64,000 bases of DNA. Source: Paracoccus aminovorans (lineage in GTDB: Bacteria; Pseudomonadota; Alphaproteobacteria; Rhodobacterales; Rhodobacteraceae). The translations under genes were made by a program, and so were the position numbers. Location: NCBI RefSeq assembly GCF_900005615.1, contig NZ_LN832559.1:62001-126000 (forward strand), read 5' to 3'. This document shows positions 60,515-64,000 of this stretch, piece after piece. Numbering within the stretch: position 1 is the first letter of the stretch; every line of letters starts with the position of its first letter. Under the pieces are notes generated by a model. It ran no database searches, had not been told where the DNA came from, and worked only from the letters and a program-made list of their open reading frames with translations.

Positions 60515-60617
60515 TCAAAGGATTTTTCTGGGTTTCCACCCTCGGGTTGCCACTTTGGGTTGCCAGGGTTGCCGGCCCCTTCGCCACCTCTCGGACATTC
60601 GCCTGTCCGTCACTTTG

Positions 60618-60653
60618 GACCCGCCTGCCCTGTCGCAGCGGGTCTTTTCTTTT
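60618..60653 (+). terminator. Rho-independent terminator/attenuator before ParB-methyltransferase (P2)
   Basis: GACCCGC (60618-60624) pairs with GCGGGTC (60638-60644), then TTTTCTTTT. The ribosome site of the next gene (GGAG) follows immediately, an attenuator-like arrangement. Confidence 0.78.
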
Positions 60654-60665
60654 GGAGTTCGCCCC

Positions 60666-61985
60666 TTGCAGATCGAGATGATGCCGGTCGGGCAGCTGGT
60701 GCCCTATGCGCGCAATGCCCGCACGCATTCGGAGGATCAGGTCGCCCAGATCTCCGCCTCAATCACGGAATTCGGCTTCACCAACCCGATCCTGATCGGC
60801 GAGGACAGCGTGATCATCGCCGGCCACGGGAGGCTGATGGCGGCACAGCGGCTGGGGCTTTCCGAGGTGCCGGTGATCGTGCTGGCGCACCTGAACGCAG
60901 CGCAGCGCCGGGCGCTGGTTGTCGCGGACAACAAGATCGCGTTGAACGCTGGCTGGGACACCGAGATCCTGCTCGAGCAGATCGAACTGATCCGCGCGGA
61001 CGGGTTCGACATCGATCTGGTCGGCTTCTCGGATGACGAACTCGGCGAATTGCTCGCGGAAATCGAGGCACCGGAGACGGCCGGCGCCATCGAGGGCGAG
61101 GATGACATCCCCGCGCCGCCCGCCGATCCGGTCTCGCGCCCCGGCGATCTGTGGATGCTGGGCCATCATCGCCTGCTTTGCGGTGACAGCACCGTCGCCA
61201 CCGATGTCGAGCGGGTGCTGGCCGGGGTGACGCCGCTTCTGATGGTCACCGATCCGCCCTATGGGGTCGAATATGATCCCTCCTGGCGCAACCAGGCCGG
61301 CGCATCCGCCACGAAGCGCACCGGCAAGGTGCTCAACGACGACCGCGCGGACTGGCGCGAGGCATGGGCGCTGTTTCCGGGTGACGTCGCCTATGTCTGG
61401 CATGGCGCCCTGCATGCGACCACGGTCGCCGACAGCCTGATCGCCAGCGGCTTCAACATCCGCTCGCAGATCATCTGGGCCAAGGACCGGCTGATCCTCA
61501 GCCGCGGCGATTACCACTGGCAGCACGAGCCCTGTTGGTATGCCGTTCGCGCCAAGGGCAAGGGCCATTGGGCCGGCGACCGCAAGCAGACCACGCTCTG
61601 GCACATCACCAGCCGCGATCAGGACGCCGAGACCGTGCACGGCACGCAAAAGCCGGTCGAATGCATGCGCCGCCCCGTCCTGAACAACTCCAGCCCCGGT
61701 CAGGCCATCTATGAGCCGTTCATGGGATCCGGCACCACGCTGATCGCGGCCGAGACCACCGGCCGCACCTGCCTCGGCATCGAGTTGAACCCTGCTTACG
61801 TCGATGTCGCCATCGAGCGCTGGCAGAACCTCACCGGCGGTGTGGCCATGCTGGAGAGCGACGGTCGGTCCTTCACCGAAATTTCCGGTGATCGATCAAG
61901 CGCCAGTCCCGGCACCCCCGCCGCGCAGGCCAGCGACCCCGACCCCCAGCCAAAACCCGCGCGCAAGCGCAAGACCGCCGCGTGA
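60666..61985 (+). CDS. ParB-like domain fused to DNA N6-adenine-type methyltransferase (P2)
   Basis: A 439-residue protein with the ParB-like domain (GQLVPYARNARTHSEDQVAQ; IIAGHGRLMAAQRLG) and a DPPY methyltransferase (TDPPYGVEYDPSW; PFMGSGTTLIAAETTG), close to the P1 gene at 14434. TTG 60666 is chosen: GGAG stands eight bases before it and the sequence LQIEMMPVGQ matches MQIELIAVDN of the gene at 62992. A basic tail follows. Methylates phage or host DNA; target unknown. Confidence 0.85.
   Translation: MQIEMMPVGQLVPYARNARTHSEDQVAQISASITEFGFTNPILIGEDSVIIAGHGRLMAAQRLGLSEVPVIVLAHLNAAQRRALVVADNKIALNAGWDTEILLEQIELIRADGFDIDLVGFSDDELGELLAEIEAPETAGAIEGEDDIPAPPADPVSRPGDLWMLGHHRLLCGDSTVATDVERVLAGVTPLLMVTDPPYGVEYDPSWRNQAGASATKRTGKVLNDDRADWREAWALFPGDVAYVWHGALHATTVADSLIASGFNIRSQIIWAKDRLILSRGDYHWQHEPCWYAVRAKGKGHWAGDRKQTTLWHITSRDQDAETVHGTQKPVECMRRPVLNNSSPGQAIYEPFMGSGTTLIAAETTGRTCLGIELNPAYVDVAIERWQNLTGGVAMLESDGRSFTEISGDRSSASPGTPAAQASDPDPQPKPARKRKTAA
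60891..61042 (+). repeat. 152-base direct repeat, copy 1
   Basis: Matches 63217-63368 with only about three differences, inside the ParB-like domain of two methyltransferase genes whose flanks differ more. It suggests recent duplication or gene conversion. Confidence 0.8.
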
Positions 61986-61989
61986 GGCC

Positions 61990-62982
61990 ATGCATGACCT
62001 GGTTGTATCTTCCCCCGGCCTGCCTGCCGGAGCCGCAGACGCATGTCTCTTCGGCCTGTCGCTGTGCTCCGGCGCGGGCGGGCTCGAGCTGGGAATCACC
62101 CTCGCCGTCCCCGGCTATCGAACTGTGGGTTACGTCGAGCGGGACGCCTTCGCGGCGGCCGTGCTCGTGGCGCGGATGGAAGATGCGGCCCTGGATCCAG
62201 CGCCTCTCTGGGACGATATTGCCAGCTTCGACGGCCGCCCATGGCGCGGCGCGGTGGATATCGTCACTGCCGGATATCCGTGCCAGCCGTTCAGCGTGGC
62301 GGGCAAGCGCCGGGGCGCGGACGATCCCCGCCACCTCTGGCCCCATGTCGCCCGCATCATCGGCGAAATCAAACCGCCCTTCGTCTTCCTCGAAAATGTC
62401 GCCCATCATCTCCGCCTCGGTTTCCCCGAAGTCGCCAGCGGACTGGTCGGCCTGGGCTACAGGCTTACGGCAGGCCTCTTCACGGCGGCGGAAGTCGGTG
62501 CGCCCCATCGGCGCGAGCGGCTGTTCATCCTCGCCATCCGCGAGGGCGACGAGCTGGCCGACCCCGCGCGCCTGCTCCGGGATCCGCTCGAGCGGCGGCA
62601 ACCGGACGGAAATGCTGCGCCTCTGGCCCACGCCGATGGCCATGGATGGCAGCAAACCGAGTGCGGGCAACCGCAGGGCGGCCGATCTGACCCACGCGGG
62701 CGCGCTGTGGATGACGCCGACGGCGCGCGACCACAAGGACGGGGCGAGCACATTGGCGAACACGCCGGTGAACGGCTTGCTTGGCCGCCAGGTCCTTGTG
62801 ACACCGCTGGCTGGCGACGATACCTGCGAAACGCCCCGGACGCTGAACCCAGCATTCGTCGAGGCGCTGATGGGCTGGCCCACCGGGTGGACCGGCTTCG
62901 CCTCTGTGGCAACGGCGTGGTCCCCCTGGTTGCGGCGCATGCGCTCAGAACTCTCGCATCTGAATTGCTGGCCGATAGGTGA
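61990..62982 (+). CDS. DNA cytosine-5 methyltransferase
   Basis: A 330-residue enzyme with motif I LSLCSGAGGLELG, motif IV GYPCQPFSVAGKRRG (catalytic C98), motif VI FLENVAHH (135-137), motif VIII VGAPHRRERLF and motif X LRLCGNGVVPLVAAHALRT. The region between VIII and X includes PLAHADGHGWQQ and WPPGPCDTAGW, usual for phage C5 enzymes. From 62612 a second frame overlaps it (next feature). Start ATG 61990. Absent from P1. Confidence 0.93.
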   Translation: MHDLVVSSPGLPAGAADACLFGLSLCSGAGGLELGITLAVPGYRTVGYVERDAFAAAVLVARMEDAALDPAPLWDDIASFDGRPWRGAVDIVTAGYPCQPFSVAGKRRGADDPRHLWPHVARIIGEIKPPFVFLENVAHHLRLGFPEVASGLVGLGYRLTAGLFTAAEVGAPHRRERLFILAIREGDELADPARLLRDPLERRQPDGNAAPLAHADGHGWQQTECGQPQGGRSDPRGRAVDDADGARPQGRGEHIGEHAGERLAWPPGPCDTAGWRRYLRNAPDAEPSIRRGADGLAHRVDRLRLCGNGVVPLVAAHALRTLASELLADR

Positions 62983-62992
62983 GGCCGCGTGA
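62612..62992 (+). CDS. Overlapping +1-frame protein inside the C5 methyltransferase gene
   Basis: A 126-residue frame: MLRLWPTPMAMDGSKPSAGN, then LWMTPTARDHKDGASTLANT, GLLGRQVLVTPLAGDD, TLNPAFVEALMGWPTGWTG and SPWLRRMRSELSHLNCWP. These blocks resemble known C-terminal regions of phage C5 methyltransferases rather than random shadow sequence, although the methyltransferase itself uses the other frame. The stop (62990-62992) shares a base with the next start in a TGATG arrangement, so ribosomes finishing this frame could restart on the next gene. The frame may be translated alone or through a +1 shift. Translation is not shown. Confidence 0.5.
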   Translation: MLRLWPTPMAMDGSKPSAGNRRAADLTHAGALWMTPTARDHKDGASTLANTPVNGLLGRQVLVTPLAGDDTCETPRTLNPAFVEALMGWPTGWTGFASVATAWSPWLRRMRSELSHLNCWPIGEAA

Positions 62993-64000
62993 TGCAGATC
63001 GAGCTGATCGCGGTCGACAACCTGATCCCCTACACCCGCAATGCCCGCACCCATTCGCCGGATCAGATCGCGCAGATCGCCGCCTCGATTGCCGAGTTCG
63101 GCTTCACCAATCCGATCCTGATCGGCGCGGATGGGGTCATCATCGCCGGCCACGGGCGGTTGATGGCGGCGCAGCGCCTCGGGTTGGCCGAGGTGCCGGT
63201 GATCCGGCTGGCGCATCTGAACGCAGCGCAGCGCCGTGCGCTGGTTGTCGCGGACAACAAGATCGCGTTGAACGCTGGCTGGGACACCGAGATCCTGCTC
63301 GAGCAGATCGAACTGATCCGCGCGGACGGGTTCGACATCGATCTGGTCGGGTTCTCGGATGACGAGCTGGCTGATCTGCTCGGAGACGCCGAGGCATCAG
63401 GTTTCGGCGCCGATGCGGAAGAAGAAGAGGAAAACATCCCCGACCTGCCCGAGGATCCCGTCACTCGCCCCGGCGACATCTGGATCCTTGGCGATCACCG
63501 GCTGATGTGCGGCGACAGCACCGATGCAGCGGCGGTCGCGGGGCTGATGGACGGACAACGCGCCACGCTCCTCTTCACCTCGCCGCCCTATGGCCAGCAG
63601 CGCGACTATGGCGCGGCGAAGGAGCAGGTCAGCGATTGGGACCGGCTGATGCAGGGCGTGTTCGCGGCAGCCCCGGTGACCGGGGACGCGCAGCTGCTGG
63701 TCAATCTCGGGCTGGTGCATCGTGACAGCGAATGGATCCCCTATTGGGATGGCTGGATCCAGTGGATGCGGGCGCAGGGCTGGCGCCGCTTCGGCTGGTA
63801 TGTCTGGGATCAGGGGCCCGGCCTGCCCGGCGACTGGAACGGGCGCTATGCCCCGGCGCATGAGTTCGTCTTCCATTTCAATCGGGTGCCACGGCGGCCG
63901 AACAAGACGGTGGAGAGCAAGCATGCCGGCGAGGTGCTGGGCGGCGGCGGGTTGCGCGCGGCCGATGGCACGGTGAGCGCCAAGCACGGCGCCGGCAACG
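62992..64000 (+). CDS. ParB-like domain fused to DNA methyltransferase with TSPPY motif (partial)
   Basis: At least 336 residues; the gene continues beyond the window. ParB-like start (MQIELIAVDNLIPYTRNART), acidic linker (ADAEEEEENIPDLPEDP), TSPPYGQQRDYG and the shared insert QWMRAQGWRRFGWYVWDQGP as in P1 15690. It is the P2 equivalent of the cytosine-N4-type enzyme. Starts in a TGATG overlap with the +1-frame protein. Confidence 0.88.
   Translation, partial: MQIELIAVDNLIPYTRNARTHSPDQIAQIAASIAEFGFTNPILIGADGVIIAGHGRLMAAQRLGLAEVPVIRLAHLNAAQRRALVVADNKIALNAGWDTEILLEQIELIRADGFDIDLVGFSDDELADLLGDAEASGFGADAEEEEENIPDLPEDPVTRPGDIWILGDHRLMCGDSTDAAAVAGLMDGQRATLLFTSPPYGQQRDYGAAKEQVSDWDRLMQGVFAAAPVTGDAQLLVNLGLVHRDSEWIPYWDGWIQWMRAQGWRRFGWYVWDQGPGLPGDWNGRYAPAHEFVFHFNRVPRRPNKTVESKHAGEVLGGGGLRAADGTVSAKHGAGN
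63217..63368 (+). repeat. 152-base direct repeat, copy 2
   Basis: Second copy of the near-identical block at 60891-61042, 2326 bases downstream. Confidence 0.8.

Follow-up and report, generated by a model that had tools for sequence, protein, structure and literature searches.

The 64,000-nucleotide stretch of Paracoccus aminovorans DNA analysed here (contig NZ_LN832559.1, positions 62,001 to 126,000; hereafter the window, whose own numbering is used throughout) carries at 61990-62992 a C5 cytosine methyltransferase gene in which two reading frames, A and B, occupy almost the same DNA on the same strand. A preliminary description, made from the sequence alone, had pointed out two protein-like frames at the end of this gene, and these are real, with the blocks listed for both frames all present. 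Frame B is offset by +1 from frame A and contains LWPTPMAMDGSK, LLGRQVLVTP, NPAFVEALMGWPTGWT and SPWLRRMRSEL; the two proteins would be nearly co-extensive (330 and 332 amino acids). The features of the locus are given below, where the frame A motifs are numbered (I, IV, VI, VIII) in the usual scheme.

61990..62982, plus strand: frame A (alpha), C5 cytosine methyltransferase chain of 330 amino acids, with motifs I-VIII and X
61994..62992, plus strand: frame B (beta), overlapping +1 chain, 332 amino acids if ATG 61994 is used, with WPTP repeats and a motif-IX-like block
61990..61996, plus strand: tandem overlapping starts ATGCATG (A, then B 4 bases later)
62056..62535, plus strand: frame A motifs I (62056), IV (PCQ, 62272) and VI (ENV, 62380), through VIII
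62497-62535, plus strand: frame A motif VIII, GAPHRRERLFILA
62555..62842, plus strand: frame B WPTP-type repeat segment, the proposed target-recognition region, where constraint switches from A to B
62843..62893, plus strand: frame B motif-IX-like block, LNPAFVEALMGWPTGWT (omega B 0.07)
62902..62955, plus strand: frame A motif X, LCGNGVVPLVAAHALRTL (LCGNGVVP, from 62902; omega A 0.11, B 0.56)
62990..62994, plus strand: TGATG, in which the frame B stop TGA (62990-62992) overlaps the next ATG (62992)

The Pfam family PF00145 matches residues 23-189 of frame A (E value 4.3e-33), and in a sequence search of solved structures M.HhaI is the top-scoring relative of this frame, with M.HaeIII lower. 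Frame B has no match in Pfam or NCBIfam; PHROG 27243 and PHROG 1008 match it. PHROG 363 ('DNA methyltransferase') matches frame A from residue 23 to 322, and PHROG 1008, which carries the same annotation, also weakly matches the motif X piece of frame A (E 0.0053). PHROG 1008 and PHROG 363 are catalogued as separate families. The invariant columns of the frame B alignments fall in the motif-IX-like block. Frame B is open in the window already from 61982, which is weak evidence by itself because the DNA is rich in guanine and cytosine (GC); the signal that goes beyond chance is conservation. A near-identical relative of the frame B open reading frame (P0124, 332 amino acids, beginning MTWLYLPP) is predicted in metagenome data, and the window's pair is present at 100 percent identity in an IMG/VR viral contig.

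Selection along the DNA was followed by omega, computed from pair counts in 24 disjoint pairs of relatives and not from a two-frame codon model, and by codon-position variability in 102 of 108 distinct loci within the overlap, in 90 upstream of it and in an equal-length set of 53 of the 62 same-length loci; the relatives share ancestry, and the counts are of non-independent events. Upstream, the most variable position is the third of frame A (0.187), while in the overlap it is the first of A, which is the third of B (0.172 vs 0.097 for the third of A). Among the equal-length relatives constraint switches sharply from A to B at A-codon 188/189 of the long class, at the first WPTP of B, and constraint on frame A returns at motif X. 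Over codons 189-324, omega is 3.42 for frame A, 0.10 for frame B and 3.85 for the third frame, C (786 substitutions); the corresponding values are 0.19, 1.90 and 3.47 in codons 20-132 upstream, 1.39, 0.07 and 1.85 in the IX block, and 0.11, 0.56 and 4.89 in motif X. Constraint is also on frame B in codons 1-9 (omega 0.15, with 1.21 for A; 29 substitutions). Selection alternates, acting on A over motifs I-VIII and X and on B over the WPTP segment and the IX-like block, and purifying selection is found in both frames, as in an overlapping (dual-coding) gene pair. According to the preliminary description, frame B would lose its standing if its only homologues were mirror images of this same DNA and its substitutions were not reduced relative to the third frame; such a reduction is plainly present, which marks frame B as a gene under selection and no mere remnant. 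The layout of a classical PF00145 enzyme is found only in its catalytic half: frame A has the domain of motifs I-VIII, while a recognition region, IX and X do not stand together in one chain, because selection between VIII and X is mostly on B while X lies in A. The A segment between VIII and X is mostly unconstrained as protein.

This frame pairing is widespread. The B segment of the preliminary description has 333 protein relatives at E up to 0.001, 397 viral stretches encode a relative of it, and one is also present in 38 of 198 genomes of the same family, counting that of the window. The pairing recurs in phages of Lactobacillus type, of gamma-proteobacteria (gamma) and of cyanobacteria, and in genomes of many phyla. 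Every motif IX/X pair that follows the strict patterns is in the +1 arrangement (194/194; 30 Lactobacillus-type, 50 gamma and 114 from the family of the window). No strict pair came from the other 76 of the 270 loci, and those that were read show a variant block. Motif X without a strict IX pattern is the state of 62 loci, 58 of them Lactobacillus-type or gamma and the rest of the window's family, which at first looked like 'A-only' relatives; a variant B block was seen in every locus of this type that was inspected (five and 15, partly other loci), though some of the remaining ones may lack B. Outside the window's family we assembled 93 genes whose frame A is open and has motifs I, VIII and X, at 47-62 percent GC. 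A looser IX-like pattern lies in frame B of 78 of them and a variant of it, by eye, in the other 15; the third frame is open in none. By script, the open B frame reaches either the IX block or a point 20 codons beyond X in 83 of the 93, and in the other 10 it stops after the variant block. Lactobacillus-type L174 and gamma L300 share 19 residues of a 20-residue B segment, and their nucleotide differences at B positions 1, 2 and 3 number 2, 1 and 13.

A scan with the B profile, using one genome per species, returned at least 553 encoding stretches among at least 593 matched. The titles of the 80 genome loci kept, many of them metagenome bins, include Pseudomonadota, Verrucomicrobia, Planctomycetes, Nitrospirales, Sphingobacteriales, Spirochaetia, Synergistaceae, Actinomycetota, Chloroflexi, Chlorobiota, Bacillota and Patescibacteria, among others. 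Frame A with both PCQ and motif X is present in frame -1 in 69 of these loci, and one of the two in 7 more; one locus has no strict IX pattern and three (L334, L382 and L383) differ in layout. The classical C5 methyltransferases of the window's genome (L001 and L002) have 14 and 18 stops in the +1 frame and no IX-like motif. Among seven phage records fetched, frame A is the annotated one in four (Lacticaseibacillus R9.1, Acinetobacter ABMM1, Salmonella S9-5 and, in two pieces, Mycobacterium Llama) and frame B in three (Synechococcus Ssp-JY39, Acidovorax Alfacinha1 and Komagataeibacter phiKX1; L156, L157 and L159). A search for phrog_10223 in 249 genomes gave no match, but the controls were likewise silent.

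In the three loci of differing layout, motif X has changed frame. In L334 (a Spirochaetia bin) and L383 (Paraburkholderia adhaesiva), frame A ends just past motif VIII (ILAYAKHSGSN and ILAHAMFED, respectively) and frame B holds motif X together with the IX block and the WPTP repeats; L382, from a Spirochaetia genome, has the same layout with frame A broken into two frames. PHROG 1008 matches the B frame of L334 across the repeats, IX and X in one frame. With X on B, A needs no open frame over this segment, as a model of two separate chains predicts. L334 and L383, and similarly L382, carry the B segment where frame A is closed, which answers the objection that frame B might have mirror-image homologues only.

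The best start of frame B appears to be ATG 61994, inside the start of frame A, with GAGG at 61984-61987, 6 bases ahead of it. An ATGNATG tandem start is found in 60 of 75 relatives of the window's family and [AG]TGAATG in 54 of the 57 gamma loci tabulated, and the gamma relative L302 has the ATG of B only, with GGAGG ahead. The shared stretch of the preliminary description begins at 62612 (MLRL in frame B). We rejected a B start there, as 28 of 53 relatives have CTG at this codon against 16 with ATG, and frame B constraint begins upstream of it, at WPTPRACSG (62555) and again at MTWLYLPP (61994); the N-terminus of B is elsewhere, and B probably runs nearly the whole length of the gene from the tandem start. 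An ATG at the ENV motif (62396), suggested by low synonymous variation, was likewise rejected because many gamma relatives have ENS without an ATG and because the openness of B reaches further upstream. The low synonymous variation itself, in A-codons 136-169 of the 53-locus set (window ~62396-62497, motifs VI-VII), is clearly explained by neither frame. At the other end, a start codon overlaps the stop of B in 105 of 108 distinct relatives, as in the TGATG junction with the following gene that had been described earlier; the stop of A, too, overlaps a start-like triplet in 101 of the 108, and the argument from stop coupling in favour of frame B is weaker for it.

Each frame avoids stops where selection is on the other. 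Observed numbers of open frames were compared with those expected from synonymous shuffles of the other frame's protein; the gamma and Lactobacillus-type rows, and the shuffle for the IX motif with A's protein fixed, are conditioned on an open frame A, whereas the rows of the window's family in the test of A's openness are not. Over the B segment, 106 of 106 family relatives keep frame A free of stops (23.4 expected), as do 93 of 94 over a longer segment (6.4 expected). Among relatives fetched by the B query alone, it is open in 82 of 82 (18.2 expected) and over the longer segment in 72 of 73 (4.5 expected). The genome loci of many phyla, 50 of the 80 of which entered this test (L382 lies outside these 50), have an open frame A in 48 of 50 (4.8 expected), the two exceptions being L334 and L383. 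Conversely, stops are absent from frame B across the catalytic domain in 55 of 55 gamma loci (3.8 expected) and across 93 codons in 27 of 27 Lactobacillus-type loci (5.5 expected), sets in which no locus has an open third frame (0 of 55 and 0 of 27; 0.0 expected). Shuffling synonymous codons with A's protein held fixed would leave B open in 31.4 of 86 distinct genes and the IX-like motif in B in 0.81 of them; the observed number is 85 of 86 for each. That A stays stop-free across the B segment while its residues are free suggests that A is translated through to motif X, and that B stays stop-free across the catalytic domain suggests that B is translated from upstream and not entered by a shift at WPTP. 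This mutual stop avoidance argues for two translated chains over frameshifting.

Based on these observations, we propose with good confidence that two frames of one message from this locus encode a two-chain (heterodimeric) C5 cytosine methyltransferase. Ribosomes would start at either of the two overlapping start codons (ATGCATG). Frame A would yield the catalytic large domain (I-VIII), a linker of nearly indifferent sequence and motif X, and frame B a conserved N-terminus of a few residues (MTWLYLPP), a long stretch tolerant of change, the WPTP-repeat segment and the motif-IX-like block. The two chains would then assemble, with B contributing target recognition and motif IX, and A motif X along with catalysis and the binding of the cofactor; a single enzyme would probably require both frames. 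Selection on both frames, the assignment of segments to frames, mutual stop avoidance, tandem starts and breadth are observed directly, and from them we infer translation of B, assembly of the chains, target recognition by B and methylation, the role of B as the DNA-recognising part being read from its position.

Several observations weigh against this proposal. Some 180 residues of B (codons 10-187) are without protein constraint (omega B 1.05 to 6.48), which is odd for a translated chain, and in codons 325-345 neither frame dominates (omega A 0.72, B 1.11, C 1.04), with some constraint on A. In the window's GC-rich family, B is open over the catalytic domain in 72 of 74 genes with 44.1 expected, and frame C in 29 of 74 with 3.2 expected; this makes the shuffle null too permissive for that family and leaves the argument from B's openness to the lower-GC sets. 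Most Lactobacillus-type B frames have a stop near A-codon 46, precluding a start at the start of A, so that the B start would differ among lineages; several of these relatives have a candidate internal B start behind a purine-rich stretch (by eye). An AlphaFold prediction of B alone has a mean predicted local distance difference test score (pLDDT) of 55.9 and a predicted template modelling score (pTM) of 0.24. In P0144, a natural A-B fusion, the catalytic part is predicted confidently and its fold matches HhaI and HaeIII, while residues 197-397 are mostly under pLDDT 50. A sequence search of PDB with B found no match, and profile searches of PDB with B and with the IX-X region found no methyltransferase; we took as chance the single match of the IX-X profile, a leucine-rich repeat (LRR) protein (E 0.00027 over weak repeats), and the two matches of the B profile, designed helical proteins (E 1.3 and 2). 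The block LNPxFVEALMGWPxGW is conserved in frame B and precedes X, and since the profile searches gave no tie to classical motif IX, the label 'motif IX' rests on pattern and position.

The preliminary description had offered a true overlapping gene, a programmed frameshift or an old frameshift, and the first of these is the one supported. A programmed +1 frameshift between VIII and WPTP, which would add a second, longer product (I-VIII plus the B segment), fits the sharp constraint switch at A-codon 188/189 and the lack of a conserved frame B start just upstream, and single-frame A-to-B fusion proteins do exist in databases (9 of the 120 matches listed, query included, span the whole fused query). 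The junctions of such fusions vary between proteins, as indels or sequencing errors would give, and this is probably what P0125, P0130, P0131, P0143-P0148 and P0150 represent. No conserved slippery run was seen by eye, and the new frame is not open or used only past a conserved shift site: B is open over the whole catalytic domain and constrained in its first 9 codons, neither of which a downstream shift needs. We consider this reading unlikely, because each frame is open where such a product would not require it. Two compensating frameshifts (A to B to A), giving one canonical chain of I-VIII, target-recognition domain, IX and X, would account for the canonical methyltransferase order of the conserved segments along the DNA, but frame A has been kept clear of stops across the B segment, in the family and across phyla, despite an omega of 3.42, which makes this explanation very improbable.

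Frame B could instead be a separate overprinted protein of another function (e.g., a regulator or an anti-restriction protein), with A a complete methyltransferase alone. Omega is silent on function, and A by itself has I-VIII, a motif-IX-like EPSIRRGADGLAHRVD and X. Against this, the VIII-X segment of A, the necessary site of a target-recognition domain, is mostly unconstrained, in L334 and L383 A ends after VIII with X moved into B, and a family annotated as DNA methyltransferase (phrog_1008) matches the B frame of L334 over repeats, IX and X; we hold a separate function to be improbable. Finally, high GC opens extra frames by chance, as the count for frame C in the window's family illustrates, and B might be a passive by-product of A's codon use or an old frameshift still visible. 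This possibility is next to nil: the substitution pattern, with B at 0.10 where A is at 3.42, already refutes it, and the pairing holds in the 93 genes of lower GC and across phyla.

Beyond this locus, we regard it as likely that a large phage 'DNA cytosine methyltransferase' family consists of dual-frame genes, with tandem starts and two near-co-extensive chains over whose frames the pieces of the enzyme are spread, each frame acting as filler without stops wherever selection is on the other. Motif X would have moved between the chains in some lineages, and the arrangement would have been kept across many phyla.

Further observations concern the surroundings of the gene and its copies elsewhere. 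The A/B gene is flanked by matches to PHROG 498 (DNA methyltransferase) and to ParB-like proteins (60555-61985 and 62989-64000), and three methyltransferase genes lie in a row. The same genome has a second A/B pair (L004, G000:C1:244294-247794), whose A is 69 percent and whose B is 79 percent identical to the window's. The WPTP modules (62555-62797 in the window, and in relatives) are ~20-35 residues long and vary in number by in-frame gain or loss; the window has few and most relatives more. In Mycobacterium phage Llama (L158, 2492-3251) the annotation divides the A chain into gp74 and gp75, two genes in different frames, and a B-like frame lies next to gp75. One chromosome of an uncultured Roseovarius (OX638333.1) has five sites that encode the same B relative with equal score (L377-L381), and an E. 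coli copy (L314), which has an internal stop and is labelled a methyltransferase pseudogene in its annotation, adjoins excisionase and integrase genes.

To our knowledge, few same-strand overlaps of ~330 codons in which both frames are selected occur outside small viral genomes, and we know of no other case in which one enzyme is split between two co-extensive frames. We found no paper on dual-frame phage methyltransferases by title or abstract, the subscription literature lying outside this search. If our proposal is true, one half of a common phage enzyme has so far been masked by its annotation, and cloning frame A regardless of B could lose the part that confers specificity. The family would also offer a tractable system for the upkeep of overlapping genes and the origin of split enzymes.

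M.HhaI and M.HaeIII, which are made as one chain in one frame, resemble the window's enzyme in the sequence match to the catalytic half of A and in the fold match to the predicted catalytic half of P0144. The nearest precedent for the pair as a whole is M.EcoHK31I, which recognises YGGCCR and whose small-chain gene is reported to lie in another frame inside the large-chain gene. This enzyme, called naturally split (PMC3439449), is described as having a large chain with I-VIII and X and motif IX on a smaller polypeptide, with the predicted target-recognition domain on the large chain (PMC3404938). Frame A of the window is likewise a large chain with I-VIII and X, whereas the recognition interval is selected in B, B is almost co-extensive with A from tandem starts, and many of the relatives fetched are viral contigs. 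M.AquI is described in the same source as two subunits that divide the enzyme into I-VIII and IX-X (PMC3404938), a division resembled by L334 and L383, in which A stops after VIII, leaving IX and X to B; it differs in that the window's motif X is in A and that L334 and L383 carry the whole variable region in B. We therefore do not file the window's pair as a member of the M.EcoHK31I type, where the predicted recognition domain is placed on the large chain and the likeness is one of description, although the pair would work like it.
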